Origin: Halorarius litoreus
GTDB lineage: Archaea; Halobacteriota; Halobacteria; Halobacteriales; Haloarculaceae
NCBI RefSeq assembly: GCF_024362405.1
Contig: NZ_CP101454.1
Location: forward strand, 744,001-808,000
Reading direction: 5' to 3'
Length of the DNA stretch: 64,000 bases
Below the pieces are notes generated by a model. The model was not told the DNA's origin. It did no database searches and saw nothing but the letters and a program-made list of their open reading frames with translations. Below are positions 26,015-56,059 of the stretch, piece by piece (position 1 is the first letter of the stretch; every line of letters starts with the position of its first letter). Position numbers and translations under genes: made by a program.

Positions 26015-26473
26015 ATGGTAGCGACCGAGCTAGAAGGAACCGAGATTCCCAGCGGGGAGTTCGGCGTCGAGGGGTGGAAGGCGTACCTCTGGGCCGACGC
26101 GACCCGTGACGAGGAAGCCGCGTTTCGATACGACGAGGACGCCGAAGCCGTCGGCGAGCCGGGCCAGCTCGTCCCGCACTCGATGTGCCAGCACATTGTC
26201 TTCGAGGCCACCGGCGGCATCGAGGCGACGATGAGCCGCCTCACCGACGACTGGAAGAGCGGGGCCGCACTCGGCGGCCTACGCGTCGAATTCCACGCAC
26301 CCATCGAGACCGGGACGACCCTCACCGTCGACGGCGCGATTACCAGCGTCGTCGAGAAGGAGGGCTCGTCCGGGGGCCTCACCATCGTCACCCACGAGTA
26401 CGCCGTCTCCACGCCCGACGGCGACGCAGTGTACGACCTCGAAGCCGACATGGTGCTGCTGGAGGACCTCTGA
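26015..26473 (+). CDS. MaoC-like hot-dog dehydratase subunit (non-catalytic-type partner)
   Basis: 152-residue hot-dog protein: WKAYLWADATRDEEAAFRYD near the start and VEFHAPIETGTTLTVDGAIT in the middle resemble the N-terminal FAS1-like dehydratase family. It lacks the DxxxxH active-site motif found in the following gene, so the two probably form a heteromeric enoyl-CoA hydratase. The ATG at 26015 is leaderless behind a CGTTTAAGG box (25982-25990). It is clearly paralogous to the 152-residue protein at 45.2 kb, as its downstream partner is to the one at 45.6 kb, so the pair has been duplicated as a unit. Confidence 0.82.
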   Translation: MVATELEGTEIPSGEFGVEGWKAYLWADATRDEEAAFRYDEDAEAVGEPGQLVPHSMCQHIVFEATGGIEATMSRLTDDWKSGAALGGLRVEFHAPIETGTTLTVDGAITSVVEKEGSSGGLTIVTHEYAVSTPDGDAVYDLEADMVLLEDL

Positions 26474-26474
26474 G

Positions 26475-26888
26475 ATGCGGTTCGACGACCTCTCGGTCGG
26501 TGACGAACTGGTCCGAACCGTCGAGGACCTGCGCGGCGACGACATGAAGCTGATCGCCGCCCTCTTGCAGGACCCGTATCCCCCCCACTACGACCCGCGT
26601 CGGGCCGAGGAGTTGGGCTACCCCGGGCTACTGAACCAGGGGCCGGCGAACCTCGCGTACATGCTCCAGCCCATCGTCCGGGAGCTCGGTGCGCCGTCGG
26701 ACCTCGCGAGCTTCGACACACGCTTTCACGACATGGTGTTCGAAGACGAGACCGTCACCGTTACCGCCACGGTCGAGGAGAAACGCCCGGCCGACGACGA
26801 CGGCCTCGTCGAGTTCAGTGTCGTGCTCGCGAAGGAGAACGGTGAGACCGCCGTCGACGGGACGGTGACGGCACGGTTCAGCGACTAA
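26475..26888 (+). CDS. MaoC-like enoyl-CoA hydratase subunit (catalytic-type partner)
   Basis: 137-residue hot-dog protein with the MaoC/R-hydratase active-site pattern LLQDPYPPHYDPRRAEELGY, in which the Asp and His of the DxxxxH motif are retained, followed by LLNQGPANLAYM. It starts one base after the preceding stop, so it is cotranslated with the first subunit. Expected reaction: hydration of a 2-enoyl-CoA, possibly one too bulky for a crotonase because heteromeric MaoC pairs are used for steroid side chains in actinobacteria (ChsH1/ChsH2). The substrate is not evident. Confidence 0.85.
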   Translation: MRFDDLSVGDELVRTVEDLRGDDMKLIAALLQDPYPPHYDPRRAEELGYPGLLNQGPANLAYMLQPIVRELGAPSDLASFDTRFHDMVFEDETVTVTATVEEKRPADDDGLVEFSVVLAKENGETAVDGTVTARFSD

Positions 26889-33955: not shown

Positions 33956-35095
33956 TCAGTCCCGCTGGAAGTCGGCGACAGGGACGAGATTGTTCCGGGC
34001 GCGCTTGAGCGGCTGGAGGAAGTCCGTGGCCGGGAGCCACGGCATCTCGAAGTCGTCGGCGTCGAATTCGGTCTCGAGGGCCGACAGCAACGCGTCGTCG
34101 TCCTCGATGGCCTCGCCCTTGACGGCGGTGCTGAGGCGCTCGAAGGCACCGAACCCCGGCTTGTGGAAGGCGTCGCCGGTGAACTGCGCCGACTGGATGG
34201 TGCCGTCAGCACCGACCACGACGCTGGCCTTGATGAGTTTCCGGCCCTTGTAGGCCACCTCCGCGACGCGGTCGTCGTCATCGGCGGTTTCGAACAGGCG
34301 AGCCGTGCTGTACTTCTCGAACCACTCGTCGCTCCCGTAGTACTCCGCGTGCGTGTCGATGGTGTCCAGTTCCTGTTCGGTGAGCGAGCCGGGTTCCGGC
34401 TCGCCGCCGACGAGGCTGGCGAGGTTGTCCGCCGACTCCGCGACGATGGCCTCCAAGTCGACGTCGGGCGCCTCGTCCTGGAGCGAGGTCATCCGGCCGG
34501 CCGCGCTGTCAGTCTCCTTGTCCTCGAACTTCTCCTTCGGGAGCTGGAGCACCTCGTCGATGGTACCGAACACCTCCGGCTCGAACGTCCAGTTGATGAG
34601 GTTAGTGAACACACCCCAGACACCGTCCTGGTAGCCGGCGCCCGAAACACCGATCTTGCCGAACTGGCCACCGGGCTCGTCGGGTGCGAGTTCGACGTCG
34701 CCGCCGTCGCGGTAGACGGCGTCCTCGACGCCGGCGTCCCGGAGGGACTTGGCCATGGCCTCGCCGGCCAGGTCGATATACTCGGTCATAGTGTGCTCGC
34801 CCCGGTCCTTGAAGAACATGTACAGCACGGGGGAGTTGTCGCCCTGGAAGAAGCCTGTGCCACCGCTGACGTTGTACCGCCGGCCGTAGTTGACGCCGGC
34901 GGCGGCGGCGGCCTCACGGTCGATCAGCGATGCGTCCTCGACGGGGCCGAGTTCGAGAAACAGATCGTCGTCGAACGTCCAGTGCATCACGGTCGGCGGT
35001 GCCTCGTCCGCCGCGATGGCGTCCACCAGCGTCCGCTCGACTGCGGGATAGGTACTCGGCGCGACTTCCAGCTCGAGTTGGCGTACTGTCGTCAT
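33956..35095 (-). CDS. lplA: Lipoate-protein ligase A homologue (second copy)
   Basis: 379-residue two-domain ligase. GRRYNVSGGTGFFQGD (71-86) corresponds to the lipoyl-AMP-binding motif, Lys147 in FGKIGVSGAGY to the catalytic Lys, and KGRKLIKASVVVGADGTIQ to the C-terminal accessory domain. EKFEDKETDSAAGRMTSL matches EKFEDKDTDTLTGRMQPL in the 7.4 kb homologue, so the two are paralogues with diverged active-site loops. The ATG at 35095 follows a ACTTATATC box (35125-35133). It probably lipoylates the island's E2 or an H-protein; a specialised target is possible. Confidence 0.75.
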   Translation of the reverse strand: MTTVRQLELEVAPSTYPAVERTLVDAIAADEAPPTVMHWTFDDDLFLELGPVEDASLIDREAAAAAGVNYGRRYNVSGGTGFFQGDNSPVLYMFFKDRGEHTMTEYIDLAGEAMAKSLRDAGVEDAVYRDGGDVELAPDEPGGQFGKIGVSGAGYQDGVWGVFTNLINWTFEPEVFGTIDEVLQLPKEKFEDKETDSAAGRMTSLQDEAPDVDLEAIVAESADNLASLVGGEPEPGSLTEQELDTIDTHAEYYGSDEWFEKYSTARLFETADDDDRVAEVAYKGRKLIKASVVVGADGTIQSAQFTGDAFHKPGFGAFERLSTAVKGEAIEDDDALLSALETEFDADDFEMPWLPATDFLQPLKRARNNLVPVADFQRD

Positions 35096-41290: not shown

Positions 41291-41710
41291 GAGTGTGACT
41301 CACAACGTTACGGTTCATCGAACACCCTATATAAAACTGTTTTCCCGCCGCTCACCATCGCGTTCGGCCAGAACCAAGAGAGACGCCCCAACGGAATCCC
41401 CTCAAACCCTCTATTGGAGCGCCTTGGGCGTTTAAACCCGGGATTCTCGGAATTCAATCACAGAGTTGGGGAGGTCGATCGATCCCCTTCGTACTCAGTC
41501 AGACCCACAAATTCGACATAGTGGACCGTTCTCGAGACGATTTGTTCCCCTCATGCGTCTCTGAACACGACCACGCCCATCCAACTCGCGTGTCGGTCCC
41601 GCACGCGGGTATCACTGGATTCAGGTGCGGCGTCCCACTGCATGGCCAGGGCCTATCCGGACCGACCGAACGAATCTTTAAGAGCGGAGAGATTGATGTG
41701 CTTGACATTC
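41291..41710. other. Divergent intergenic region between the second binding protein and the CoA ligase
   Basis: Holds the minus-strand TATA box of the binding-protein operon (41328-41338) and the plus-strand box TCTTTAAG (41675-41682) of the CoA ligase. In between is about 330 bases in which I see no conserved ORF, CTAG promoter element or strong inverted repeat. Confidence 0.5.
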
Positions 41711-43420
41711 ATGACCGGAGAGGGGTATATCACCGAGTTCGACGACCGGCCGCTGCACGAGTTGACGACCCCGGACGTGCTGGCGAACCGTGCGAGGGCG
41801 ATAGGTGAGAAGACCTTCGCCGCGTACGGACCGACCGACGAGCGGGTCAGCTTCGCCGAGATGTGGGACGAAACCAGGTCGATCGCCACCGGCCTAGTCG
41901 AGCTAGGTGTCGACGACTTGGAACACGTGAGTTTCTTCGGCAGCCACTCGCTGTACACGGTGCGCTCGTTGTACGGCATCCACGCTGCGGGGGCGGTGTT
42001 CGCTCCGATCAACTACGAGTACGAGGGCGCCGAACTCGCCTATCAGATCAACGACCTCACCCCACGGTACCTGATCCTGGAGGATCGGTACGCCGCCCGG
42101 TTTAACGCAGTCGTCGACGACCTCGATGACCCCCCTCACATCGTCCTCGTCGAGACGGATGCCGAGAGCGAGCCACTCGCCGACGAGTTCGAGGTGACGC
42201 CGTTTTCGACGCTCCGAGACCACCCACCCGAGCGGCCCGATCGGACACCCTCCTGGGACGACCCGGCGGTCGTGCTGTACACCTCTGGGACCACGGGCGA
42301 TCCGAAGGGTGTGGTCTGTGCCCACCGCGTGCTGTTGGCGAACCACGCGGTGTTGCAAGCCACACTGTGCAATCGGGGGGACACGGCCCACAACCCGCTG
42401 CCACTGTACCACATCGGCGGGCTGAGCTTCTGTAACTCAATGCTGCTCTGTGGCGGGACGGTCGCGCTCTGGGACGGCTTCTCGGCCTCGGAGTTCTGGG
42501 CCCGGATCGACCGGTACGACGCGACGGCGACGCTCATCCTGTCGGTGATGACCGACTTCCTGGTCGACCAGCCCGAGCGTCCTGCCGACCGGGAGAACTC
42601 GCTGAAGCTGGTCTCGATCCAGCCGATGCCCGACGACTGCCTCGAGATCGCGGAGCGGTTCTCTTGGGAGTTACTCGTCGCCGGCTACGGCCAGACCGAG
42701 ACCGGGTCGCCCATCTTCGGGCTGATCGACGCCGGCGCTGGCCACGACGGCATTCCCGAGGCCTACCGGTACGGGACCGACTCCGAGACGATGAAAGCGC
42801 GCGCCGGCCAGTTGGGCATCCCGGTCGAGCCCGAACCCAGGGGCGACCGCTGGATGGGCAAGCCGATTGCACCCAACGCCACGGTAACGATCCTCGATGC
42901 GGACGACGAGCAACTCCCCCCCGGCTCGACCGGGCAGCTCGCCATCCGGCCGAACCGGCCGTCGATCATTCTGGACGGCTACCTCGGCCGGCCCGAACAG
43001 ACGCTCGAAGCCGTCGAGAACCTGTGGTTCCACACCGGCGACGTCGCCCGGCTCGACGAGGAGGGCCACTACTACTTCGTCGACCGGATGGCCAACGTCA
43101 TCCGGCGCCGTGGGGAGAACATCTCGCCGTCGCAGATCCAGGGTGGAGCCACCAGGCACGACGCCATCGGGACCGCAGTGGCGTTCCCGGTCCCCGCCGA
43201 GAAGGGTGGCGAAGACGAGATCGCGGTCGTGGTCCAGCCCGCGGCGGACGCGACCCTCGACGAAGCGACGGTGCGCGACCACCTCGAGGCGGAGCTGCCC
43301 GGGTTCATGCACCCCAAATACATCGAAATTCGCGACGAGCTCCCGACGACGTCGACCAACAAGGTGGCAGTCTCGACGGTCAGAGACGAGTTCATGGCCG
43401 ACCACCCAGACTTCGACTGA
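41711..43420 (+). CDS. AMP-forming CoA ligase, CaiC/long-chain-acyl-CoA synthetase type
   Basis: 569-residue ANL ligase distinct from the other two in the window. The phosphate loop is YTSGTTGDPKGVVCAH, followed by PLPLYHIGGLSFCNSMLLCG, VAGYGQTETGSPIFG, FHTGDVARLDEEGHYYFVDR and the C-terminal Lys in LPTTSTNKVAVST. The pattern resembles crotonobetaine/carnitine-CoA ligases and FadD-type enzymes of steroid clusters. The ATG at 41711 is near-leaderless behind TCTTTAAG; ATG at 41696 is an alternative. It lies just upstream of the thiolase operon and probably makes the CoA substrate that operon consumes. Confidence 0.92.
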   Translation: MTGEGYITEFDDRPLHELTTPDVLANRARAIGEKTFAAYGPTDERVSFAEMWDETRSIATGLVELGVDDLEHVSFFGSHSLYTVRSLYGIHAAGAVFAPINYEYEGAELAYQINDLTPRYLILEDRYAARFNAVVDDLDDPPHIVLVETDAESEPLADEFEVTPFSTLRDHPPERPDRTPSWDDPAVVLYTSGTTGDPKGVVCAHRVLLANHAVLQATLCNRGDTAHNPLPLYHIGGLSFCNSMLLCGGTVALWDGFSASEFWARIDRYDATATLILSVMTDFLVDQPERPADRENSLKLVSIQPMPDDCLEIAERFSWELLVAGYGQTETGSPIFGLIDAGAGHDGIPEAYRYGTDSETMKARAGQLGIPVEPEPRGDRWMGKPIAPNATVTILDADDEQLPPGSTGQLAIRPNRPSIILDGYLGRPEQTLEAVENLWFHTGDVARLDEEGHYYFVDRMANVIRRRGENISPSQIQGGATRHDAIGTAVAFPVPAEKGGEDEIAVVVQPAADATLDEATVRDHLEAELPGFMHPKYIEIRDELPTTSTNKVAVSTVRDEFMADHPDFD

Positions 43421-43501
43421 CGGACATCGCCTGATAGCGGTCGTCCGCGGCCTTTCCCCGAGGGCACTCGGCCGAGCGCGTGGGGGAGATGTTGCAGCAG
43501 G

Positions 43502-43508
43502 TTTAATA
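43502..43508 (+). promoter_or_regulatory. TATA-like box of the thiolase operon
   Basis: TTTAATA, predicted transcript start about 43531. This is 50 nt ahead of the thiolase ATG but only about 12 nt ahead of the small upstream ORF at 43543. Confidence 0.5.
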
Positions 43509-43542
43509 ATTCGTGTGCCGACTCGACTGTAGTACGATTCCG

Positions 43543-43584
43543 ATGAGAGTACACGCTGTCACTACGGAGGACGAGTATCGATGA
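43543..43584 (+). CDS. 13-codon upstream ORF overlapping the thiolase start (ATGA)
   Basis: MRVHAVTTEDEYR followed by TGA. The stop and the thiolase ATG share the bases ATGA at 43581-43584. The ORF begins about 12 nt after the predicted transcript start, so it would be translated first and its ribosome could re-initiate on the thiolase gene. A GGAGG at 43566-43570 inside the ORF may help re-initiation. Reality is supported by the same layout at four other genes in this window. No function for the peptide itself is visible. Confidence 0.45.
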   Translation: MRVHAVTTEDEYR

Positions 43585-44762
43585 GTGCGACCACGGGAGG
43601 GTCGATCGTCGGCTGGGCCGAAACCGAGAGGTTCGGTCGGATTCCCGAGAAAGACCTCGAGGAACTCAACCAGCAGGTGGCCTACGACGCCATCGCGGAC
43701 GCCGGCCTCGAACTGGACGACGTCGACGGGCTGGTGGCGTCGGCCCCCACCGACGAACCGGCGGGGCTGTACGTCAGCGAACTCGCCGAGGAGCTCGGGC
43801 TCGTCGACGGGCTCAGACACGGCTCGACCGGCGGCATCGGCGGCGCCAGCACGCTGCAGAACCTGCACGTGGCCTGCCAACAGGTCGCCAGTGGCCAGTG
43901 TGAGAACATCCTGGTGATCGGCTGTGGCAAGCTCGCGACGGGCAGCTGGGGCGACGAGGCCGACGCCGTCGAGCAGATGGCGTCGATCGGCCACGCCCAG
44001 TTCGAGACGCCCTACGGGCCGTTCATCCCGTCGATGTACGCCCTGCCGGCCCGTCGGCACATGCACGACCACGGGACGACGCCCGAACAGCTCGCGAAGC
44101 TCACCGCGATCCACTACGACCACGCGGCGATGCAACCGGACGAGCGGTCGTTCACCAACGAGACCAAGACGCCCGAGGAGATCCTCGAGTCGCCGATGAT
44201 CGCCTCGCCGCTGACGCTCGACCAGTGTTCGCTGGTCACCGACGGTGGCTGTGGGATCGTCGTCACCAGCGAGGAGCGCGCCCACGCCGACTACGACGTC
44301 CCGGTTGACGTCGTGAGCTTCGGCGAGCACGCCACCCACGAGAAGGTCCACCAGATGCAGGACCTCACGCGGACGGGGGCACGCGAGGCCAGTCAGGCGG
44401 CGTTCGAGGCCGCCGACCTCGACCACGACGACATCGACGTGGTGGAGCTGTACGACTGCTTCTCGATTACGGTGTTACAGGTGCTCGAGGACCTGGGCTT
44501 CTGTGAGTACGGCGAGGGCGGTGCGCTCGTCGACAGCGGCGAGCTGGAGCTCGATGGCAAGTGGCCGCTCAACACCCACGGCGGCGAGCTCGCCCAGAGC
44601 CACCACGGTCCCTCGGGCCTGTTGCACGTCGTCGAGGCCGTTCGCCAACTGCGTGGCGAAGGCGGCCCGACGCAGGTCGAGGACGCCGAACACGCACTGG
44701 TCCACGGCAACGGCGGCGTGCTGTCCTGCCAGAACGTCGCCATCCTGGAGCGAGGTGACTGA
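43581..44762 (+). CDS. Thiolase-family protein lacking the nucleophilic Cys (Ltp2/SCP-2 thiolase-like, probable retro-aldolase)
   Basis: 393-residue thiolase fold. The helix that carries the acyl-accepting Cys in true thiolases reads GSTGGIGGASTLQNL (81-95), with no Cys. The C-terminal blocks VVELYDCFSITVLQVLEDLG, NTHGGELAQSHHGPSG and VHGNGGVLSCQNVAIL follow the lipid-transfer/SCP-2 thiolase pattern. Ltp2 enzymes of this kind cleave steroid side-chain acyl-CoAs by retro-aldol chemistry together with a DUF35 protein. Here a DUF35 gene follows after two bases and two MaoC genes after that. Assignment to the family is firm; the retro-aldolase role is inferred. Confidence 0.85.
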   Translation: MSATTGGSIVGWAETERFGRIPEKDLEELNQQVAYDAIADAGLELDDVDGLVASAPTDEPAGLYVSELAEELGLVDGLRHGSTGGIGGASTLQNLHVACQQVASGQCENILVIGCGKLATGSWGDEADAVEQMASIGHAQFETPYGPFIPSMYALPARRHMHDHGTTPEQLAKLTAIHYDHAAMQPDERSFTNETKTPEEILESPMIASPLTLDQCSLVTDGGCGIVVTSEERAHADYDVPVDVVSFGEHATHEKVHQMQDLTRTGAREASQAAFEAADLDHDDIDVVELYDCFSITVLQVLEDLGFCEYGEGGALVDSGELELDGKWPLNTHGGELAQSHHGPSGLLHVVEAVRQLRGEGGPTQVEDAEHALVHGNGGVLSCQNVAILERGD

Positions 44763-44764
44763 CG

Positions 44765-45172
44765 ATGGAGACAGCCTGGTATACGCCGGAACCCACCGAC
44801 GCGACCGAGGAGTACTGGAACGCGACCGCCGAGGAGCGCCTCGTCGTGCCCTACTGCAGGGACTGCGAGGACTACTTCTTCTACCCCAGACACCGGTGTC
44901 CGGAGTGTATGTCGGAGTCGATCGAGCACCGGGAGTCGAGCGGCGAGGCGACGCTGGAGTCCTACACCACGGTCTACCGACCCCCGGTGGAACAGCTCCA
45001 GGCGGAGGCGCCCTACATCAACGCGCTCGTCCGGCTCGAGGAGGGAGTCCAGTTGATGACCAACATCGTCGCCGACAGCGAGGACGACCTCTCCGTCGGG
45101 ATGGATCTAGCGCTGACCTGGCGGCCGACGGACGGAGACTACAACCTGCCGTACTGGGAGGCCAACGAATGA
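44765..45172 (+). CDS. DUF35 OB-fold/zinc-ribbon protein
   Basis: 135-residue protein with a rubredoxin-like zinc ribbon, CRDC (31-34) and CPEC (45-48), followed by an OB-fold part containing TLESYTTVYRPP and YINALVRLEEGVQ. DUF35 proteins are obligate partners of thiolase-type and HMG-CoA-synthase enzymes, and in actinobacterial ChsH2 the same domain is fused to a MaoC subunit. Here it is a separate gene lying between the Cys-less thiolase and the MaoC pair, overlapping the next gene by four bases (ATGA). Role inferred: channelling CoA thioester between hydratase and aldolase. Confidence 0.88.
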   Translation: METAWYTPEPTDATEEYWNATAEERLVVPYCRDCEDYFFYPRHRCPECMSESIEHRESSGEATLESYTTVYRPPVEQLQAEAPYINALVRLEEGVQLMTNIVADSEDDLSVGMDLALTWRPTDGDYNLPYWEANE

Positions 45173-45627
45173 GCGAGACGACGTACGACCATCTGGAAGG
45201 CACCGATATCGGCGAGGGAGAACTGACGGTCGAGAGCTGGGAGGCGTTCCTCTGGGCCGACGCGACCGACAACGACGAGGACGCGTTCCGGTGGGCCGAC
45301 GAGGCCGAGGCGTACGACGTCGACCGCCAACTCGTGCCGCCGGAGTACGGCCTCAACGTCGCCAACACCGCCATCGACGCCGACCTCGACGACCTGGGGC
45401 TCGACCCCGACATGGAGAAAGGCACGTTCCACGCGGGCCAGAGCTTCGAGATTCACCAACCGCTCGTGGTCGACGAGACCTACACGGTCTCGGGCACGCT
45501 GTCGCGCGTCGAGCGCAAGGAGGGCGGCTCCGGCACGTTCGACCTGGTGACACAGACCTTCGAGATAACCGACGAGGCCGGCGAGCCCGTCATGGAGACC
45601 GAGACCAGCGCCATCCTGATGCGATAA
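45169..45627 (+). CDS. MaoC-like hot-dog subunit (non-catalytic-type partner), second pair
   Basis: 152-residue hot-dog protein paralogous to the 26.0 kb gene of the same length: WEAFLWADATDNDEDAFRWA against WKAYLWADATRDEEAAFRYD, and VSGTLSRVERKEGGSG in the core. It lacks the DxxxxH motif. It overlaps DUF35 by ATGA and precedes the catalytic-type partner by two bases. Predicted to form a heteromeric enoyl-CoA hydratase that feeds the thiolase-like enzyme, as ChsH2 does with ChsH1 and Ltp2; the bacterial parallel is established, its use here is inferred. Confidence 0.82.
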   Translation: MSETTYDHLEGTDIGEGELTVESWEAFLWADATDNDEDAFRWADEAEAYDVDRQLVPPEYGLNVANTAIDADLDDLGLDPDMEKGTFHAGQSFEIHQPLVVDETYTVSGTLSRVERKEGGSGTFDLVTQTFEITDEAGEPVMETETSAILMR

Positions 45628-45629
45628 CC

Positions 45630-46049
45630 ATGCACCACGACGACATCACCATCGGCGAGGAGGTAGCGACGCTAGAGTTCACCGACGTCGACCCGGCGAA
45701 TATGAAGATCGTCTCGGCGGTCATGGGTGACCCCAACCCGATCCACTACGACGAGCGGGCCGTCGACCGGATGGGCCACCCCGGCCTCATCAATCAAGGT
45801 CCGATCAACATGGGCTACGGCACCCAGGCCGCGCTCGCCGTCGCCGAGTCGCCACTGGGCATCGAGTCCATGGAATTTCGGTTCGAGGACAACGTCTACG
45901 AGGGCGAGGACGTGACGGCCGTGGCCGAGGCGACCGACACCTACGTCGAGGACGGGCAGAGCTTCGCCGACCTGGAGGTCCGCCTAGAGAAGACCGACGG
46001 CACCGTGCCGGTCACCGGGACCGCGACCGTCCGGACCGAGAACGACTGA
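45630..46049 (+). CDS. MaoC-like enoyl-CoA hydratase subunit (catalytic-type partner), second pair
   Basis: 139-residue hot-dog protein with a complete R-hydratase motif MGDPNPIHYDERAVDRMGH (Asp and His of DxxxxH present), then LINQGPINMGYG and a C-terminal VTGTATVRTEND. It is last in the thiolase-DUF35-MaoC-MaoC operon. It should add water across a 2-enoyl-CoA to give the 3-hydroxyacyl-CoA on which a retro-aldolase would act. Its closest visible relative is the 26.5 kb gene. Confidence 0.87.
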   Translation: MHHDDITIGEEVATLEFTDVDPANMKIVSAVMGDPNPIHYDERAVDRMGHPGLINQGPINMGYGTQAALAVAESPLGIESMEFRFEDNVYEGEDVTAVAEATDTYVEDGQSFADLEVRLEKTDGTVPVTGTATVRTEND

Positions 46050-46578: not shown

Positions 46579-48261
46579 TCAGTCCGCGGCCTGGGACTCC
46601 TCCGCCTCGGCGAGGGTGAAGCCCTCGTAGTTTTCCGCGGCAACCGCCTCGATCCGGTCGTTGTAGAGGTTGATCCCGCCGGGGTAGATGAGGAACGTCT
46701 GGTCTTTGCCCGGGATGTTGTCGCCACGATACCAGGACGCCGAGTCGGGATACAGCGTCTGGCTGGCGACCTCTTCGTTGTGGGCAGCCCACTCCTCTTC
46801 CGCGTCTTCCTGGGCCTCGATGTGCTGATAGCCGTTCTCGAGCATGTAGTCGAGACACTCCGTGATCCATTCGACGTGCTGCTGGATCGGGACCACCATG
46901 TTCGTGAGCACCGACGGGCTCTGCGGGCCGGTGATCATGAACATGTTGGGGAACCCGTGGGTGCCGAGGCCGAGGTAGGTCCGCGGGCCGGCCTCCCACT
47001 TGTCTTCGAGGTTCTGGCCGTTGCGGCCGGTGATGTTCAGCGACTCCAGCGTCCCGGTCACGGCGTCGAACCCTGTCGCCATACAGAGGACATCGATTTG
47101 ATGTTCGGTGCCGTCCTCGAGGACGATGCTGTCCGCGTTGAACCGGGCGATGGGGTTGTCGCCCACGTCGACGAGTTCGACGTCGTCCCGGTTGAACCGC
47201 TCGTAGTAGCCGTTGTACGCAAGCGGCGGACGCTTGGCGGCGTACCAGTGTTCGGGGTTACCGTCTTCGTCCATCGGAATCAGCTTCTCGGCGAGTTCCG
47301 GGTCGTCGATGGTCTCGCGGATCTTCTCGGCGATGAACTCGCACACGAGCGTGTTCGTGTCCTTGTTGATCAGCGTGTCCTCGAACACCGACAGCAGCGG
47401 GCCGCCTTCCTCCCACCGCTCCTCGAGTGACTCCCAGGCCTCCTCCCTCGAGAGGTCGTCTGCCGTGGGATGCGTGAACTCGATGTCGAGGCCCCCGTCG
47501 GAGTTGCGTGCGGCCTCCCACAGCTCGTCGTAGTTGGCCTTGAGCTCCTGCCACTCCTCTTCCTCGAGCGGCCGGTTCCGGGCCGGAACGGCCCAGTTGG
47601 GGGTGCGCTGGAACACTTTGAGGTGTTCGCTTTCCTCGGCGAGGTGTGGCATCGTCTGGATTCCCGTCGAGCCAGTGCCGATCAGGCCGACGGTCTTGCC
47701 CTCCATGTCGACGCCGTCTGCCGGCCAGCTGGACGTGTGGTACCACGTGCCCTCGAAGTCTTCGAGCCCGTCGAAGTCGGGAATGAACGGCTTCGAGAGG
47801 TTGCCAACAGCGGGGATGAAGTACTGCGTCGTGTAGCTGGACCCGTCCTCGGTCTCGATCTCCCAGATGCCGCTGTCCTCGTCGAACGTCGCGGACGTGA
47901 CCTTCGTCTCGAATTCGATGTCCTTGTAGAGGTCGTGACTCTCAGCCACGAACGAAATGTAGTCCTGAATCTCCGGCTGATGGGGGTATCGCTCGGTCCA
48001 CTCCCACTCCTCTTGGACGTCGTCACACCAGTCGTAGCAGTACAGCCAACTGTCACTGTCACACCGGGCCCCGGGGTACTTGTTGTGGTACCAGGTCCCG
48101 CCGACGTCGTCGGCCATCTCGAGGCCTTGCACCGACAACCCGAGGTCGTCCCGCAGTTTCTTCAGCATATAAATCCCGGAGAAGCCCGCACCGACCACGA
48201 GGGCGTCGAAATCTGTATCTTTGGCTAACGCTGCATCCCGGCCTTGCTCACTGGCACTCAT
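46579..48261 (-). CDS. Baeyer-Villiger-type flavin monooxygenase
   Basis: 560-residue FAD/NADPH enzyme. Two Rossmann motifs, GAGFSG (24-29) and GTGSTG (195-200), flank the Baeyer-Villiger fingerprint FEGTWYHTSSWP (169-180, pattern FxGxxxHxxxW). GGTWYHNKYPGARCDSDS near residue 54 is also typical of cyclohexanone/steroid/phenylacetone-type BVMOs. It inserts oxygen next to a ketone to give an ester or lactone. The esterase-like hydrolase gene directly upstream on the same strand would open that product. The ATG at 48261 lies behind a TCTTTAATAG box (48296-48304). Confidence 0.92.
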   Translation of the reverse strand: MSASEQGRDAALAKDTDFDALVVGAGFSGIYMLKKLRDDLGLSVQGLEMADDVGGTWYHNKYPGARCDSDSWLYCYDWCDDVQEEWEWTERYPHQPEIQDYISFVAESHDLYKDIEFETKVTSATFDEDSGIWEIETEDGSSYTTQYFIPAVGNLSKPFIPDFDGLEDFEGTWYHTSSWPADGVDMEGKTVGLIGTGSTGIQTMPHLAEESEHLKVFQRTPNWAVPARNRPLEEEEWQELKANYDELWEAARNSDGGLDIEFTHPTADDLSREEAWESLEERWEEGGPLLSVFEDTLINKDTNTLVCEFIAEKIRETIDDPELAEKLIPMDEDGNPEHWYAAKRPPLAYNGYYERFNRDDVELVDVGDNPIARFNADSIVLEDGTEHQIDVLCMATGFDAVTGTLESLNITGRNGQNLEDKWEAGPRTYLGLGTHGFPNMFMITGPQSPSVLTNMVVPIQQHVEWITECLDYMLENGYQHIEAQEDAEEEWAAHNEEVASQTLYPDSASWYRGDNIPGKDQTFLIYPGGINLYNDRIEAVAAENYEGFTLAEAEESQAAD

Positions 48262-48582: not shown

Positions 48583-49542
48583 TTATAAGTCGGCAGCGGC
48601 GTCGGCGATGATGTCGGCGCCGCGCTCGATGGCCATCGGTGGGATGACCATCTGCGCGATGCCGTGGATCGCGTCGTCGTAGTGGATGTGGTTGACGTCG
48701 TTGCCGGCCTCCTCGACCGCCTGGGCGTAGGCAGCGCCTTCGTCGCGCAGCGGGTCGAACCCGCACGTCATCACCGTCGTCGCCGGGAGGTCGCTGAAGT
48801 CGCTGTCCTGCAGCGGTGCCGCGTAGGGGTTGCGGGCGTCGGTGTCGTCGCGCAGGTACGCGTCCCAGAAGTGCTCCATGTCGGCCTTCGAGAGCAAGTA
48901 CCCCTCGGCGTTCTCCTCGTAGGACGCCGTGTCGAAGTTGGTGTCCGTGACCGGGTACAGCAGCACCTGACGCGAGATGTGGAGGTCACCACGGTCCCGC
49001 GCGAGGTGGGAGACGCCGGCAGCGAGGTTCCCACCGGCGCTGTCACCGGCGATCGCCAGGTCGTTCGGGTCGACCTGGAGCGCCTCGGCGTTGTCCTGGA
49101 CCCACTTGGCGGCCCCGTAGACGTCTTCGAGGGGGGCGGGGAACTTCGCCTCGGGCGAGAGGCGGTAGTCCACCGACACGGTCAGCCGGTCGGTGGCTGC
49201 GGTCAGCTGCCGGCAGGTCTCCTCGAACGTGTCGAGGCTACCGGTAGCCCAGCCACCGCCGTGGACGTACACCAGCGGGTCGAACGGCGGTTCCGCCTCC
49301 GGAACGTACACGCGAACCGTGATGTCGGCCTCGCCCGCGTCGATCACGAGTTCCATCGTGTCGGCGACCTCGGTCGGATTCTCGGCTTCGGGGAACATCC
49401 CATCGACGAACGCCCGGGCGCCCTCGACGCCGAGCGACGGCAGCGGGGGCATCGGTGCGGCGCCCATCTGCTGAAGGAGGCCGGCGATCTCCGGGTGTGG
49501 CTCGTCCGCTCGAGATACTACTTCTGGGTTTATGGAAGCCAT
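48583..49542 (-). CDS. Alpha/beta hydrolase (hormone-sensitive-lipase family carboxylesterase/lactonase)
   Basis: 319-residue esterase. Oxyanion motif HGGGW is at 94-98 and the nucleophile Ser168 in GDSAGG. The acid is in the FDPLRDEGAAYA block and the His in DDAIHGIAQM near the C-terminus. All HSL-family elements are present. The ATG at 49542 was chosen because a GGTTTATCTATT box lies at 49565-49576, making a leaderless start; ATG at 49554 is possible. Coupled with the downstream BVMO, it most likely hydrolyses the ester or lactone that enzyme makes. Confidence 0.9.
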   Translation of the reverse strand: MASINPEVVSRADEPHPEIAGLLQQMGAAPMPPLPSLGVEGARAFVDGMFPEAENPTEVADTMELVIDAGEADITVRVYVPEAEPPFDPLVYVHGGGWATGSLDTFEETCRQLTAATDRLTVSVDYRLSPEAKFPAPLEDVYGAAKWVQDNAEALQVDPNDLAIAGDSAGGNLAAGVSHLARDRGDLHISRQVLLYPVTDTNFDTASYEENAEGYLLSKADMEHFWDAYLRDDTDARNPYAAPLQDSDFSDLPATTVMTCGFDPLRDEGAAYAQAVEEAGNDVNHIHYDDAIHGIAQMVIPPMAIERGADIIADAAADL

Positions 49543-49939: not shown

Positions 49940-50974
49940 TCAGAGCGAATGGAGGTCCTCGACCAGTCCCTCCCAGGTCTCGTCACCGGTGAAGACGTGC
50001 TGGAGCTGAATCCGGTCGGCCAGGTCGCCGTACGATCGGTCGATCTCCTCGGCCAGGTCGTCGATGTGGGCCTCGATCGCGAACGCATCCACCATCTCGT
50101 CGGTCACGAGGTGTGTCATCTCCGCCCAGGTGTGGTCGTCGGCGAGTTCGTGTAACCGCTCGCCGACGTCCTCCCAGCCGTGTAGCTCGAGGACGTCGTG
50201 GTAGGTGCGCGTGTGACCGCCGTAGAAGGCGATCTCCGTCTTGACGCGTTCGCGCTGGGCCGCGAGTTCCTCCTCGGACGTGCCGGTGATGGTGAAGGGG
50301 ATCGCCACGATCTCGACGTCGTCGAGCGACCGGCCGGTGCGCTCTGCACCCTCGCTGACCGTCGGGCGGATCACCTCTTCCACGTAGCGCGGCGTGTTGA
50401 ACGAGTGCATCGCCAATCCGTCGGCGAGTTCTCCCGTGAGCCGGAGGTTGCGCTCGTTGGTAGCTGCCAGGTGAATCGGGATGTCGGGGTGGTCGATCGG
50501 CCCCGGGTCGAACAGGTCCGACATCAGGTCGAACGAGTAGTGCTCGCCCTGGTAGTCGAGTTCGTCCGCCTCGCCCTGCCAGACGTCCCAGATGTGCTGG
50601 ACCGACTCGACGACCTCGCGGAGGCGCTGGTTGGGCGCCGTCCACTCGACGGAGAACCGCCTCTCGTTGTGGGACTTGACCTGCGTGCCCAGCCCCAGGG
50701 AGAACCGCCCGTCGGAGTACTGCGCGAGGTCCCAGGCCTTGTAGGCCAGCACCATCGGACTCTGAGTGAACGACAGGGCGATCCGCGTCCCGATGTCGAC
50801 CTCGTCGGTGTGTTCGGCGATCAGTGGCAAGGGCAGGAAGGCATCGTTGTCGACCATCGGCGTGAACACGCCGTCGACGCCCATGGCCTCGGCCTGTTCG
50901 GCCATCTCGACGATCCCCTCGGAGAGCGCGTGCTCGCGGTCGGGTCTGAACAGTGTTAACGTATCTATTTTCAT
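49940..50974 (-). CDS. F420-dependent LLM-class oxidoreductase
   Basis: 344-residue TIM-barrel enzyme of the luciferase-like superfamily. Seen: MAEQAEAMGVDGVFTPMVDN near the start, VDIGTRIALSFTQSPMVLAY, then GRFSLGLGTQVKSHNERRFS and IPIHLAATNERNLRLTGELA. This matches actinobacterial F420-dependent LLM proteins more than the 5.9 kb enzyme does. The ATG at 50974 follows TTTAAC (51001-51006) by about 30 nt, with CTAG 12 bases beyond that box. Reduced F420 would have to come from a functional F420 reductase, whose local copy is frameshifted. Confidence 0.88.
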   Translation of the reverse strand: MKIDTLTLFRPDREHALSEGIVEMAEQAEAMGVDGVFTPMVDNDAFLPLPLIAEHTDEVDIGTRIALSFTQSPMVLAYKAWDLAQYSDGRFSLGLGTQVKSHNERRFSVEWTAPNQRLREVVESVQHIWDVWQGEADELDYQGEHYSFDLMSDLFDPGPIDHPDIPIHLAATNERNLRLTGELADGLAMHSFNTPRYVEEVIRPTVSEGAERTGRSLDDVEIVAIPFTITGTSEEELAAQRERVKTEIAFYGGHTRTYHDVLELHGWEDVGERLHELADDHTWAEMTHLVTDEMVDAFAIEAHIDDLAEEIDRSYGDLADRIQLQHVFTGDETWEGLVEDLHSL

Positions 50975-51089: not shown

Positions 51090-53492
51090 TCAGTTCCCGT
51101 CGGCTTCGTTGATTGCCGACCAGACGGTCTCGTTGTCGAGGGGCATCTCCAGGTGGTCGATGCCCCACGGTTCGAGCGCGTCGAGGACGGCGTTGACGAC
51201 CGCCGGCGTCGAGCCGATGGTCGCGGATTCGGCGACGCCCTTGACGCCCATCGGGTTGTGCGGCGAGGGGGTCACCGTCTCGTCCAGTTCCATCTCGGGG
51301 ATGTGGTTGGCCCGCGGGACGGCGTAGTCCTGCATCGACGCCGTCTCGAGCGTTCCGTTCTCGTTGTACTGCTCGCCCTCGTAGAGCGCCTGGCCGATGC
51401 CCTGGGCGGCGCCACCCATCACCTGCCCCGCGACCAGCTTGGGGTTTATCTGGACGCCGCAGTCGTCGACGGCGACGTACCGTTCGAAGTCGACTTCGCC
51501 GGTGTCGGGGTCGACCTCGACGATGGCGATGTGGGTGCCGAAGGCGAACGTGAAGTTCACCGGGTCGTAGAACGCGGAGGCCTCGAGGCCCGGCTCCATG
51601 TCGTCGGGCAGCTGGTGGCCCTGGTGGGCCTCGTGGGCGACCTCCTGGAACGTCATCGACCGGTCAGGCGCGCCGGCGACGTGGAACTCGCCCTCCTCCT
51701 GGACGATATCCTCCTCGGCCGCCTCGAGCTGGTGGGCGACGATCTTGCGTGCCTTGTCGACGACCTTCTCGGCACTCTTCTTGATAGCCGAGCCGCCGAC
51801 CGGCGCGCTGTGGCTCCCCATCGTCCCGGAGCCGTCTGGAGTGTACTCGGTGTCGCCGTCCATGATCTCGATCGAATCGAACGGGACGCCGAGTTCGTCG
51901 GAGATGATCTGGGTGAACGACGTCATGTTCCCCTGGCCGTGGTCGGCTGTGCCGGCGTAGGCGGTGATGGTGCCGCCGGGGTTGACGCGGATCTGGCCAC
52001 TGGCGGTGAACGTCCCCATCGTCCCGGTGGTGACGCTGGCTTCGGCCGGGGCCGGGCCGGCGTTCTCGACGAAACAGCCGATGCCGATGCCGAGATACCG
52101 CCCCTCTTCACGGGCTGCCTCCTGGCGCTCTTTGAAGCTCTCGTAGTCGACGATGTCGAGCGCCTTGTCCAGGTTATCGTCGTAGTTCCCGCTGTCGTAC
52201 ACCAGCCCAGTGGCGACCTCGTAGGGGAACTCGTCTTCCTTGATGAAGTTCTTCCGCCGGATCTCGGTCCGGTCCATGCCGATCTCGCGGGCGGCCTTGT
52301 CCATCAGCCGCTCGACGACGTAGCAGGCCTCCGGCCGGCCGGCGCCCCGGTAGGCGTCGACGGGCGTCTTGTTGGTGAAGACGCCGGTGACCCACGCCTC
52401 GATCGCCGGAATCTTGTAGTTCATCGACAGCATCGGCGCGAAGTAGCCGGTCGGGCCGGCCGAGGCGAACGAGGAGACGTAGCCGCCCAGGTCGACCTTC
52501 GAGTCGACGCGCAGCCCCTGGACGCTGCCGTCGTCGTCGACGGCCATGCTGCAGTCGATGTGATGGCCACGGCCGGGCGTGTCCGTCTGATAGGCCTCCG
52601 TCCGCGTCGACACCCACTTGACCGGCCGCTTGAGTTCCTTGGCCGCCCACGCCGTGATCAGCTCGTCGGGGTACGCGGCCGCCTTCATCCCGAAGCCCCC
52701 ACCGACGTCGGGCGCGTTCAGGTGGATCTTGTGTTCCGGCATGTTGAGGGTGTCCGTGAACACGGTCCGGTGGTTGTGCGGCATTTGGGAGGTGAAGTCC
52801 ACCCGAAGCTTGTTCTCCGAGGCCTTGTACTGGGCCAGCGCCGCCCGGGGCTCCATCGAGTTGGCGACCAGCCGCTGGTTCACCATCTCGAGTTCGACCG
52901 TGTTGTCGGCCGCCTCGAAGATCTCGTCCATCGCGTCTTCGTCGCCGAATCCCCAGTAGTAGGCCGTGTTGTCGGGCGCCTCGTCGTGGATGGTCACCGA
53001 GTCGTCCTCGAGCGACTCGAAGGGGTCGACGACTGCATCGAGGCGGTCGTACTCGACCTCGACGCGGTCGGCAGCCTGGTGGGCCGTGTAGCGGTCCTCG
53101 GCGATGACGGTCGCCAGCGCCTCACCTGCGTAGTACACCCTGTCTCTGGCCATCAGCGGCCGCTCGACCTCCGGGAGTTCGATGCCAGGGGCGATGTTCA
53201 TCTCCGCCATCGTCCCTTTTGCGTCCGAGGCGTCGATGTCTGCCTGGGTGATTACGGCGATGACGCCGTCCATCGCTTCGGCCGCGCTCGTGTCGATGTC
53301 GAGGATGTCGGCGTGTGCGTAGCGGCTGCGCGCCATCGCCGCGTGTGTCATATGCGGCGCCGTAATGTCGTCGGTGAACTGGGCGTCGCCGGTGAGCAGT
53401 GCCGGGTCCTCGCGCCTGTCGACCTCAGCACCGACGAGCGTCCCGGTCTCGCTTTTCATCGTCTCCGAGCCGGGCGCGTTTTCCGAACTCAT
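51090..53492 (-). CDS. Molybdenum hydroxylase large subunit, form II CODH-like (xanthine dehydrogenase family)
   Basis: 800-residue molybdopterin subunit. The active-site loop is AYRGAGR (380-386), the form II signature; authentic CO dehydrogenase has AYxCSFR. The Mo-cofactor glycine loop DVGGGFG is at 262-268, and the conserved catalytic Glu755 is in GVKGVAESATIGST. So this is a Mo hydroxylase of unknown substrate, not a proven CODH. The start at 53492 overlaps an 18-codon upstream ORF by ATGA. It is divergent from coxG-S-M-D-E, unlike the usual MSL operon order. Confidence 0.92.
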   Translation of the reverse strand: MSSENAPGSETMKSETGTLVGAEVDRREDPALLTGDAQFTDDITAPHMTHAAMARSRYAHADILDIDTSAAEAMDGVIAVITQADIDASDAKGTMAEMNIAPGIELPEVERPLMARDRVYYAGEALATVIAEDRYTAHQAADRVEVEYDRLDAVVDPFESLEDDSVTIHDEAPDNTAYYWGFGDEDAMDEIFEAADNTVELEMVNQRLVANSMEPRAALAQYKASENKLRVDFTSQMPHNHRTVFTDTLNMPEHKIHLNAPDVGGGFGMKAAAYPDELITAWAAKELKRPVKWVSTRTEAYQTDTPGRGHHIDCSMAVDDDGSVQGLRVDSKVDLGGYVSSFASAGPTGYFAPMLSMNYKIPAIEAWVTGVFTNKTPVDAYRGAGRPEACYVVERLMDKAAREIGMDRTEIRRKNFIKEDEFPYEVATGLVYDSGNYDDNLDKALDIVDYESFKERQEAAREEGRYLGIGIGCFVENAGPAPAEASVTTGTMGTFTASGQIRVNPGGTITAYAGTADHGQGNMTSFTQIISDELGVPFDSIEIMDGDTEYTPDGSGTMGSHSAPVGGSAIKKSAEKVVDKARKIVAHQLEAAEEDIVQEEGEFHVAGAPDRSMTFQEVAHEAHQGHQLPDDMEPGLEASAFYDPVNFTFAFGTHIAIVEVDPDTGEVDFERYVAVDDCGVQINPKLVAGQVMGGAAQGIGQALYEGEQYNENGTLETASMQDYAVPRANHIPEMELDETVTPSPHNPMGVKGVAESATIGSTPAVVNAVLDALEPWGIDHLEMPLDNETVWSAINEADGN

Positions 53493-53545
53493 CGCACTCC
53501 ACCACGGCGATACGTATCCCGAGAAATCTTGCTGATGTCTATCAT
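53489..53545 (-). CDS. 18-codon upstream ORF overlapping the Mo-hydroxylase large-subunit start
   Basis: Encodes MIDISKISRDTYRRGGVR; its TGA overlaps the large-subunit ATG (ATGA at 53489-53492). The ATG at 53545 is about 9 nt from the transcript start predicted from the TTTATAAC box at 53577-53584, so it is the first start codon of the message. The long gene is 60 nt from that start and has only GGTGGAG before it. Translational coupling is inferred; same layout as at 43.5, 54.6, 56.2 and 63.4 kb. Confidence 0.45.
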   Translation of the reverse strand: MIDISKISRDTYRRGGVR

Positions 53546-53977
53546 GGTCGTACGCCCTATTGTGATGGAACCAATTGTTATAAAAATTGAGGTACTCCCG
53601 GATCGGCGACCTCTGTCCGCCGCAGACGACGGGTTCCGGGACAGCGAACCGTGAGATGCCGGCGGGCAACCCCTGACGAGATTCAGGGCCTAGACCGATT
53701 GCCTAGGTCAGAGCACCACGCTCGCCGTCCTCGACGCCCGGCCACTGTACAGAGAGGGTGGTCGCCTTGTGGTGTAGATTCGCCAAGGCACGGGATGGCG
53801 GTCAAAGGGTCGCACAGCCCCGGAGATGCCGGATAGGCTGTCGACCGTGGGATGTCGACCGCGGGAAGGGCCGGGCCCCGCCACGCTCTCGTCGTCCCAG
53901 GCAGTCGTCGTTGGGCACGTACTGGTTCACGACGAAGAAATATTAATGGGAGCGGGAGTGGTTGGTTGTGCTGGACA
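53546..53977. other. Divergent promoter region of the Mo-hydroxylase cluster
   Basis: Holds the large-subunit TATA box (53577-53584, minus), two CTAG sites 13 bases apart (53690-53693 and 53703-53706, within GCCTAGACC and GCCTAGGTC) and a tandem 14-base repeat, TGTCGACCGTGGGA followed by TGTCGACCGCGGGA (53839-53866). It also holds the coxG box AAATATTAATG (53937-53947, plus). No gene is supported here. Confidence 0.55.
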
Positions 53978-54586
53978 ATGGACTTTGAGGGCACATTCAA
54001 ACTAGAAGACAGGACTATGGAGGAGGTCTGGCTCGGGTTATCCGATCCGGTCCTCATCCGGAATTCGCTTCCTGGCTGTCAGTTTCTGCTCGAGGTCGAC
54101 GACGAGTCGCCGGACTTCGAGGAACTCCGCGACCGCGCGGCCGAGATCGACGACGAGGACGTCGACCTGGACCCCGAGGCCGTCGCCGAACGGGCATTCC
54201 AGGAGGGGTCGCGGTACGTCGCGCTGATGGAGATCAGCATCGGCCCGGTGAATCCGTCCTTCGAGACCACCGTCGAGAACCTCCATCGGGAGTTCCCGGA
54301 GATGCGCGCCGAGGGCGAGGGGAGTGCCTCGAACAGTTCCTTCGACGTGGAGGCGGGGATGAGACTGTCTCAGGACGGCGACGACGTCATCGTCGAGTGG
54401 TGGGCCGAGGCCGACGTCTTCGGGCGAATCGCCCAGATGGGCCAGCGGATGATCAACCCGGTTGCCAACCGCGTCATCAACCAGTTTTTCAACAGCGTCG
54501 AGGCCCAGCTCGACGGCCTCGACCCCGAGACGTCCTCCTCGAGCGGGGGCCTCACCACCTCGATCAAGAGCAGGTTGGGAATGTGA
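53978..54586 (+). CDS. coxG: CoxG-like SRPBCC-fold protein
   Basis: 202-residue START/SRPBCC-domain protein. MDFEGTFKLEDRTMEEVWLG, then LSDPVLIRNSLPGCQFLLEV and a C-terminal NQFFNSVEAQLDGL region match CoxG, which in bacterial CODH clusters anchors the enzyme to the membrane or handles quinone. An acidic insertion (DEDVDLDPEAVAERAFQEG) near residue 70 lengthens it. A TATA-like AAATATTAATG box lies about 30 nt before the ATG. It starts the plus-strand arm of the cluster, with the small-subunit gene 75 bases downstream. Confidence 0.85.
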   Translation: MDFEGTFKLEDRTMEEVWLGLSDPVLIRNSLPGCQFLLEVDDESPDFEELRDRAAEIDDEDVDLDPEAVAERAFQEGSRYVALMEISIGPVNPSFETTVENLHREFPEMRAEGEGSASNSSFDVEAGMRLSQDGDDVIVEWWAEADVFGRIAQMGQRMINPVANRVINQFFNSVEAQLDGLDPETSSSSGGLTTSIKSRLGM

Positions 54587-54587
54587 C

Positions 54588-54665
54588 ATGAACCAAGGTA
54601 AAGATTCAGTAGGTTGGAGTGTGGATTGCGAACGAACGACACGCTGTCCGGAGCGACACCAATGA
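54588..54665 (+). CDS. 25-codon ORF bridging coxG and coxS
   Basis: Starts one base after the coxG stop (MNQGKDSVGWSVDCERTTRC, then PERHQ) and stops at a TGA that overlaps the coxS ATG (ATGA at 54662-54665). It therefore fills the coxG-coxS gap exactly, which chance would rarely give. Two Cys residues (14 and 20) are present. It may encode a small protein of the complex or exist only to couple translation; neither can be decided from sequence. Confidence 0.5.
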   Translation: MNQGKDSVGWSVDCERTTRCPERHQ

Positions 54666-55159
54666 CAGAAGATATCACCCTTACGATAAACGGAACGGAA
54701 CACGAGCTGTCGGTCCCGCCGAACAAACTCCTCGTCCACGCCATCAGGGACGACCTCGGGCTGACGGGGACCAACGTGGGCTGTGAGACCAGCCAGTGTG
54801 GCGCCTGTACGGTCAACATGGACGGCGATGCTGTCAAGTCCTGCACCGTCCTGGCCGTCCAGGCCGACGACACGGAGATCAACACGGTCGAGGGGCTCGC
54901 CGACGAGGACGGTGAGTTCCACCCGATTCAGGAAGGGTTCCACCGCGAGCACGGCCTCCAGTGTGGGTACTGTACGCCCGGTATGATGATCACCGCCCAG
55001 GAGATACTCGAGGAGAACCCCGACCCCACGGACGAGGAGATCCGCGAGGGACTCGAGGGCAACCTCTGTCGGTGTACCGGCTACCAGAACATCGTCAGCG
55101 CGGTCCAGCACGCCGCCGAAGAGCTGGGGCGAGCAGCCCCACAATCGGGTGACGACTGA
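54662..55159 (+). CDS. coxS: Molybdenum hydroxylase small subunit, [2Fe-2S] protein
   Basis: 165-residue iron-sulfur subunit. The ferredoxin-type cluster uses Cys41, 46, 49 and 61 (CETSQCGAC, then SC), and the second cluster Cys101, 104, 136 and 138 (CGYC, CRC). Both clusters are complete. It transfers electrons from the molybdopterin subunit to the FAD subunit. The ATG at 54662 is preferred over an upstream TTG because of the ATGA overlap with the preceding small ORF. The FAD-subunit gene begins immediately after its stop. Confidence 0.95.
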
Positions 55160-56059
55160 ATGTTCCCCGAAGAGTTCGACTACTACCGGGCCGGGTCGAT
55201 AGACGAAGCCATCTCGCTGCTGGGCGAGCACAGTGACGGCGACACGGAGATCCTCGCGGGCGGCCACAGCCTCCTGCCGACGATGAAGTCGGGGCTGTCC
55301 TCGCCGGACAGCGTGATCGACATCAGCCGCGTCGACGAGATGAGCGGCATCTCCGTCGACGGCGACACGGTCACCATCGGTGCGACCACCAACTACGCGG
55401 CGGTCGCCGACTCCGACGAGGTCTGGGAGTCTGCGACCTGCCTCGCGGAGGCCGTCAGCAAGATCGGCGACAAGCAGGTGCGCAACCGCGGCACCGTCGG
55501 CGGAAACATCGCCCACGCCGACCCCGCGTCCGACCTCACCGGCGCGTTCCTTGCCTCGAACGGCACGGTCGTCGTCCAGGGCCCCGACGGCGAGCGCCGG
55601 GTTGCCGCCGACGACTTCTTCCTGGGCATGTACGCGACGGCTGTCGAGCCCGACGAGATCGTCACGAAGATCGAAGTCCCGAAGACGGGGGAAGACACCG
55701 TCGGCGCCTACGTCAAGAAGCCGAGCCCAGCTTCGGGCTACCCGATCGTCGGCGTCGGCGCGGTCGTCGATATCGACGGCGACACGATCCAGTCAGCCCG
55801 AATCGCCGCCAACAACCTGATGGACCACGCCGTCAGGCTCACCCCGACCGAGGACGCCCTGGCAGGCGAGCCCGCGACCGAGGAGTCCGTGGCCGCCGCA
55901 GCCGAGATTGCCACCGACGACCTCGACGAGATGATGATGATGGAGGACATCGAGGCCTCCCCCGAGTTCCGTGCCCAGCTCGCCAACGTCTTCACCGAGC
56001 GCGCGCTCAACGCCGCCCTCGACCGCGTCGAGTCGCCGACGCCCGCCGCGGCCGACTGA
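55160..56059 (+). CDS. coxM: Molybdenum hydroxylase medium subunit, FAD-binding
   Basis: 299-residue FAD subunit of the xanthine dehydrogenase/CODH family. The two FAD-contact motifs are AGGHSLLP (33-40) and TVGGNIAHADPASD in the middle, followed by a C-terminal CO_deh_flav_C-like domain. It passes electrons from the [2Fe-2S] subunit to an acceptor such as the quinone pool. It starts directly after coxS with no intergenic base. The assembly genes follow after 233 bases with their own promoter. Confidence 0.94.
   Translation: MFPEEFDYYRAGSIDEAISLLGEHSDGDTEILAGGHSLLPTMKSGLSSPDSVIDISRVDEMSGISVDGDTVTIGATTNYAAVADSDEVWESATCLAEAVSKIGDKQVRNRGTVGGNIAHADPASDLTGAFLASNGTVVVQGPDGERRVAADDFFLGMYATAVEPDEIVTKIEVPKTGEDTVGAYVKKPSPASGYPIVGVGAVVDIDGDTIQSARIAANNLMDHAVRLTPTEDALAGEPATEESVAAAAEIATDDLDEMMMMEDIEASPEFRAQLANVFTERALNAALDRVESPTPAAAD

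Follow-up and report, generated by a model that had tools for sequence, protein, structure and literature searches.

The window, a stretch of 64,000 nucleotides from the haloarchaeon Halorarius litoreus (contig NZ_CP101454.1, positions 744,001 to 808,000), carries a unit of four genes that probably encodes a two-enzyme module for hydration and retro-aldol cleavage, in which a HadAB-like hydratase would act first and a thiolase-fold aldolase held by a DUF35 protein second; judged from sequence, the probability of this reading is about 0.6. To our knowledge, hydration and retro-aldol cleavage involving a DUF35-bound thiolase-fold enzyme have so far been shown for bacterial steroid side chains alone. 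The haloarchaeal unit has like parts but belongs to another clade, so that, if the reading is true, this chemistry would be broader than steroids, and the four proteins would form a compact system for testing its breadth.

The four-gene unit and the active site of its thiolase-fold protein

The predicted products of the unit are as follows:

43581-44762, + strand: thiolase-fold aldolase subunit, 393 amino acids; Thiolase_C_1 (Pfam)
44765-45172, + strand: DUF35 protein encoded by its own gene; zf-ChsH2 and OB_ChsH2_C (Pfam)
45169-45627, + strand: inert hot-dog hydratase subunit, HadA-like; FAS1_DH_region (Pfam)
45630-46049, + strand: catalytic MaoC subunit; MaoC_dehydratas (Pfam), dyad in GDPNPIHYD

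Successive genes are separated by a 2-base gap, a 4-base overlap and a 2-base gap. The third-position guanine plus cytosine content of 0.90-0.92 and the strong acidic excess found throughout the set indicate that all four frames are real haloarchaeal coding sequence. Both the coordinates and the coding signal thus bear out the four tightly packed genes at 43581-46049 described in an earlier reading made from the sequence alone (the sequence-only reading).

The nucleophile position of the thiolase-fold protein, which lies in the motif ACASG in thiolases, is aligned with Gly87/88 (IGGAST). The protein has eight cysteines (residues 99, 107, 115, 216, 224, 293, 308 and 383), none of which falls in the nucleophile column of the alignment with solved relatives; this excludes, at the level of the alignment rather than of model coordinates, that a Cys from elsewhere fills the position. 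The loss of the nucleophile reported earlier therefore holds, while the label ‘Cys-less’ applies to that residue only, as the protein is not free of Cys and keeps Cys293. The latter is part of a YDCF motif (Tyr291 and Cys293) located where thiolases have HDCF, with Tyr replacing His, and an NTHGG motif is also present. In the bile-acid side-chain aldolase Sal of Comamonas testosteroni (CtSal), which has Gly at the nucleophile position, Tyr302 and Cys304 of the YDCY motif are essential (PMC12329534). The conserved Cys293 is probably catalytic as well. His341, which keeps the thiolase His position, aligns with Tyr344 of Ltp2 and Gln352 of Sal, and the set Tyr291/Cys293/His341 includes neither the Tyr of Ltp2 nor the Gln residues of Sal.

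Among characterised proteins the best sequence match is CtSal (181 bits), followed by acetoacetyl-CoA thiolase (134 bits) and TcLtp2 (130 bits). The predicted fold (mean local confidence, pLDDT, 85) matches 4u4e, CtSal (9myr; template-modelling score, TM, 0.89), acetoacetyl-CoA thiolase, TbSLP and TcLtp2 (6ok1; TM 0.84). The top match, 4u4e from Sphaerobacter, carries YDSF and was deposited merely as a putative thiolase.

The DUF35 protein contains an ordinary four-Cys zinc ribbon (C-x2-C-x10-C-x2-C) followed by an OB fold, as expected from the zinc-ribbon DUF35 gene proposed in the sequence-only reading. Its best matches in the PDB are aldolase-bound DUF35 domains, namely those of ChsH2 (6ok1_B) and Shy (9myr_B). 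As had also been noted, only one of the two hot-dog proteins has the D-x4-H dyad: D34 and H39 of the last protein lie in GDPNPIHYD (GDxNPIHxD type), while the first (45169-45627) lacks the Asp/His dyad. The profiles of both match HadA, HadB and itaconyl-CoA hydratase, those of ChsH1 and ChsH2 only marginally; the inert subunit is predicted to fold like HadA (TM 0.77). The pair therefore shares with ChsH1-ChsH2 the combination of an inert and an active subunit, without a specific relationship; in sequence it is closer to HadAB, and its earlier description as the counterpart of ChsH1-ChsH2 is not borne out. A second, paralogous pair of an inert and an active MaoC protein is encoded at 26015-26888, beside an aminotransferase, and is commoner across haloarchaea.

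Phylogenetic position and distribution of the layout

The phylogeny was inferred from 63 sequences and supersedes a larger quick tree that gave long-branch warnings. A branch with 100/100 support parts all Cys-less DUF35-coupled proteins, including the window protein, from acetoacetyl-CoA thiolases. The placement with biosynthetic acetoacetyl-CoA thiolases that would count against the sequence-only reading was thus not observed, and this split and the active-site residues together rule out such an enzyme. The archaeal complex of acetoacetyl-CoA thiolase, DUF35 and 3-hydroxy-3-methylglutaryl-CoA synthase (PDB 6esq) likewise combines a thiolase fold with a DUF35 scaffold, but it has the nucleophile Cys and HDCF, is biosynthetic and lies across this branch.

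Within the Cys-less proteins, the window protein clusters with those of Haladaptatus, Halomicrococcus and two further haloarchaeal genomes, G123 and G277 (100/99); the next relatives in the tree are from Natrinema caseinilyticum and Halobacteriales archaeon YIM A00010 (94/96). Neither the clade of Ltp2, a steroid aldolase for C3 side chains (100/99), nor that of Sal, a bile-acid aldolase for C5 side chains (100/100), includes it, which makes it a relative of both and a member of neither. With the Sal-Shy system (PDB 9myr; PMC12329534) the unit shares Gly at the nucleophile position, the YDC motif, NTHGG, the fold, a DUF35 partner and a MaoC hydratase within the same system. However, the two aldolases are only ~33% identical and differ in His341 versus Gln352, and the Sal-type DUF35 ribbon is Cys3His and fused to MaoC, whereas in the window the ribbon is four-Cys and unfused and the hydratase is a two-gene pair. 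The actinobacterial Ltp2-ChsH2-ChsH1 system (PDB 6ok1 and 4w78) resembles the unit in the DUF35-coupled thiolase-fold aldolase, the inert and active MaoC pair and the four-Cys ribbon, but has YDHF instead of YDCF and Tyr344 instead of His341. The best reading remains a DUF35-linked thiolase-fold aldolase combined with a heteromeric MaoC hydratase, and to that extent the earlier interpretation survives; the specific kinship with Ltp2-ChsH2-ChsH1 is not borne out.

The gene neighbourhoods of relatives were compared in 80 fetched loci. A separate DUF35 gene adjoins the aldolase gene in nearly all of them, and a MaoC gene is found nearby in 20. On a plasmid of Azospirillum brasilense (NZ_CP059451.1; L178:9052-11394) the thiolase-like protein, DUF35, inert MaoC and active MaoC are encoded in identical order; the aldolase is 41% identical to the window protein and the active MaoC has DFNPIHVD, but the aldolase motif is YDSF and not YDCF, and an enoyl-CoA hydratase gene comes next. 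A related set on a Rhodococcus rhodochrous plasmid (NZ_CP083975.1; L160:1020-3652) consists of genes for MaoC_N, MaoC, an unfused DUF35 and an aldolase of the Ltp2 clade, and so differs in the clade of the aldolase and in having the hydratase genes first and the aldolase gene last. These two cases suggest that the haloarchaeal unit belongs, as a variant, to a type that is widespread in bacteria. The stand-alone DUF35 gene, presented earlier as a distinguishing trait, is usual in the superfamily, and the whole layout exists in bacteria. The MaoC and DUF35 parts of C. testosteroni ChsH2, when expressed apart, still gave both activities (PMC12502768).

Three of the 392 sampled genomes of Halobacteria yielded the YDCF form (H. 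litoreus, G123 and G277). Further matches came from G401 and G402, which belong to the family of H. litoreus and were matched by sequence without inspection of the motif, and from plasmids; G411, the only further genome listed from this genus, had no match. Relatives of the inert MaoC were found in eight of the 392 genomes, and the four genes stand side by side in H. litoreus alone among the archaeal genomes examined. The searched literature contained no description of an archaeal case, in line with the earlier remark that no archaeal system of this type was known. As far as that literature goes, the unit, with its predicted activity, is most likely new for archaea in biochemical terms.

Other Cys-less thiolase-like proteins are frequent in haloarchaea. 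A large family with YDSF, related to 4u4e, is encoded mostly next to a DUF35 gene (L003, L016-L042); its search matched 41 of the 392 genomes at E 1e-60, three of them of the YDCF type. Close orthology of the window protein with these common YDSF thiolase-DUF35 pairs was rejected, since these pairs, at ~40% identity, form a separate clade with NTDGG or NTQGG. Numerous genes that carry the annotation acetyl-CoA acetyltransferase or thiolase probably do not encode thiolases. A second DUF35 gene, located about 9-12 kb before the window (contig positions 731834-734680; L010:7834-10680), is followed by two genes for thiolase-like proteins that have neither the nucleophile Cys nor an HD/YD motif (MATYAPSF and TFNPYIPF); these show 65-89% conservation in several further haloarchaea and are found there near the second MaoC pair.

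Alternative readings

Several observations weigh against the hydration and retro-aldol module. In the closest relatives from haloarchaea (Haladaptatus, Halomicrococcus, G123 and G277; 46-49% identity), the thiolase-like and DUF35 genes stand without a MaoC, ligase or Baeyer-Villiger monooxygenase (BVMO) gene beside them, which means that the hydratase link is not conserved within the clade. We know of no assayed member of this clade, Sal and Ltp2 being outside it. Gln161, Gln347 and Gln352 of CtSal are not retained in the window protein. The BVMO encoded near the unit is on the opposite strand, and such a gene occurs within 8 kb of just four of the 80 relatives.

The thiolase-fold protein might instead catalyse a different reaction, such as decarboxylation, acyl transfer or, together with another partner, a Claisen-type step, and DUF35 would then be no more than a scaffold. 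The family of Cys-less YDxF proteins is indeed very large and mostly uncharacterised, comprising YDSF, YDAF and YDCF forms, and most of its members have no MaoC gene nearby; the related TbSLP decarboxylates malonyl-CoA only weakly and has no established function (PMC12329534), and the thiolase His position is kept as His341. However, the usual acyl-enzyme cannot form without the nucleophile Cys, both residues of the proven Tyr/Cys dyad of Sal are present, and the operon continues with a MaoC pair, as the order of hydration and then retro-aldol cleavage predicts. We regard this explanation as unlikely, though it is the strongest of the competitors.

It is less probable still that the thiolase-DUF35 pair and the hydratase pair are unrelated neighbours, the latter serving ordinary beta-oxidation. 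This would accord with the existence of the paralogous MaoC pair and its haloarchaeal relatives without an adjacent Sal-like aldolase, and with the closest relatives of the aldolase lacking MaoC genes, but not with the tight spacing of all four genes, nor with the recurrence of the order in Azospirillum and of the related set in Rhodococcus.

An archaeal steroid side-chain system, functionally equivalent to Ltp2-ChsH2-ChsH1 and acting on CoA esters of sterols or bile acids, appears the least probable of all, despite the catalytic motif shared with Sal, the nearby BVMO of the steroid-monooxygenase/PAMO-like type, and the KstD-like flavoproteins, P450s and many CoA ligases encoded within the surrounding 144 kb. 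The C-terminal domain of KshA was unmatched in the genome (in a search of ring genes confined to KshA and HsaD, with a weak control set), HsaD-like matches were generic hydrolases far under the cut-off, and the KstD-like proteins fell under all curated steroid cut-offs, one of the two being best matched by 4-oxocyclohexanecarboxylate dehydrogenase. Moreover, a survey of more than 8,000 genomes contained no archaeal steroid degraders (PMC4810484), and neither the Sal nor the Ltp2 clade includes the aldolase. For CoA-transferase families, the H. litoreus genome gave no specific match; a CoA-transferase pair is located far off, at 602-604 kb. The more plausible substrate is an acid with a branch or a ring, of isoprenoid or alicyclic type, rather than a steroid. 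The KstD-like flavin adenine dinucleotide enzymes are encoded at 8571-10229 and at L009:27-1721, and the match to 4-oxocyclohexanecarboxylate dehydrogenase suggests alicyclic ring breakdown.

Neighbouring genes and the proposed pathway

The genes flanking the unit comprise:

41711-43420, + strand: acyl-CoA ligase (adenosine monophosphate-forming; PRK06155-like), with a possible alternative in-frame ATG upstream at 41642
46579-48261, - strand: type I BVMO, PAMO-like (PAMO, 1w4x, 562 bits; steroid monooxygenase, 490 bits)
48583-49542, - strand: LipP1-family alpha/beta hydrolase (LipP1, 380 bits, over the cut-off)
49940-50974, - strand: F420-type luciferase-like oxidoreductase (TIGR03617)

The CoA ligase that had been placed directly upstream of the unit is indeed the adjoining gene, but its stop codon is separated from the thiolase start by 160 bases (43421-43580, + strand). 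This gap contains the stretch TTTAATAA, ~77 bases 5' of the thiolase start, and is a candidate site for a separate promoter of the four-gene unit.

In Oceanobacillus rekensis (L064:4737-13524), a YDCF aldolase and DUF35 are encoded together with CoA ligases, a BVMO and a LipP1-type hydrolase; the window BVMO and hydrolase are 46% and 34% identical, respectively, to their counterparts there. This cluster differs from the window in having no adjacent MaoC pair and an additional Zn alcohol dehydrogenase. In a Sphingomonas bin, the aldolase is accompanied by a BVMO and by a couple of MaoC-like genes, of which the second is without the usual Asp. As a general partner of the aldolase family, the BVMO was ruled out by its frequency of four in 80 loci. 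The adjoining BVMO and esterase genes, here and in Oceanobacillus, suggest that the cleavage product is a ketone, which may be oxidised to an ester or lactone and then hydrolysed.

From the genes, residues, phylogeny, fold and neighbourhoods, all obtained by sequence analysis and computation, we infer complex formation, both reactions, the order of the steps and the ketone product of the hydration and retro-aldol module as follows. Activation of the acid would fall to the CoA ligase. A heteromeric, HadAB-like hydratase, which the inert and the active MaoC protein may form together, would hydrate the alpha,beta-unsaturated acyl-CoA, and the resulting beta-hydroxyacyl-CoA could be cleaved in a retro-aldol reaction by the thiolase-fold protein bound to the stand-alone DUF35, yielding acetyl-CoA (or propionyl-CoA) together with either a ketone or an aldehyde. 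As the base, Tyr291 would take the beta-hydroxyl proton, and Cys293, perhaps with His341, would give a proton back to the enolate. A ketone could then be converted by the BVMO to an ester or lactone, to be cleaved by the LipP1-family hydrolase. A route by which archaea would break down beta-branched or alicyclic acids through retro-aldol cleavage, running through ligation, dehydrogenation, heteromeric hydration, DUF35-aldolase cleavage to a ketone, BVMO and esterase and using Tyr291, Cys293 and His341 as a third active-site solution in the superfamily, is put forward only tentatively.

The surrounding 144 kb are rich in catabolic genes, encoding CoA ligases, branched-chain-type ATP-binding cassette transporters, P450s, KstD-like flavoproteins and a molybdenum hydroxylase. 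The molybdenum hydroxylase cluster (51090-56059) lies near the BVMO gene, with the large subunit on the - strand and the 2Fe-2S and FAD-type subunits, judged by their start sequences, on the + strand. Two proteins of ~380 amino acids with weak lipoate-ligase-like domains, encoded at 7426-8568 and 33956-35095, recur in other haloarchaeal catabolic clusters.

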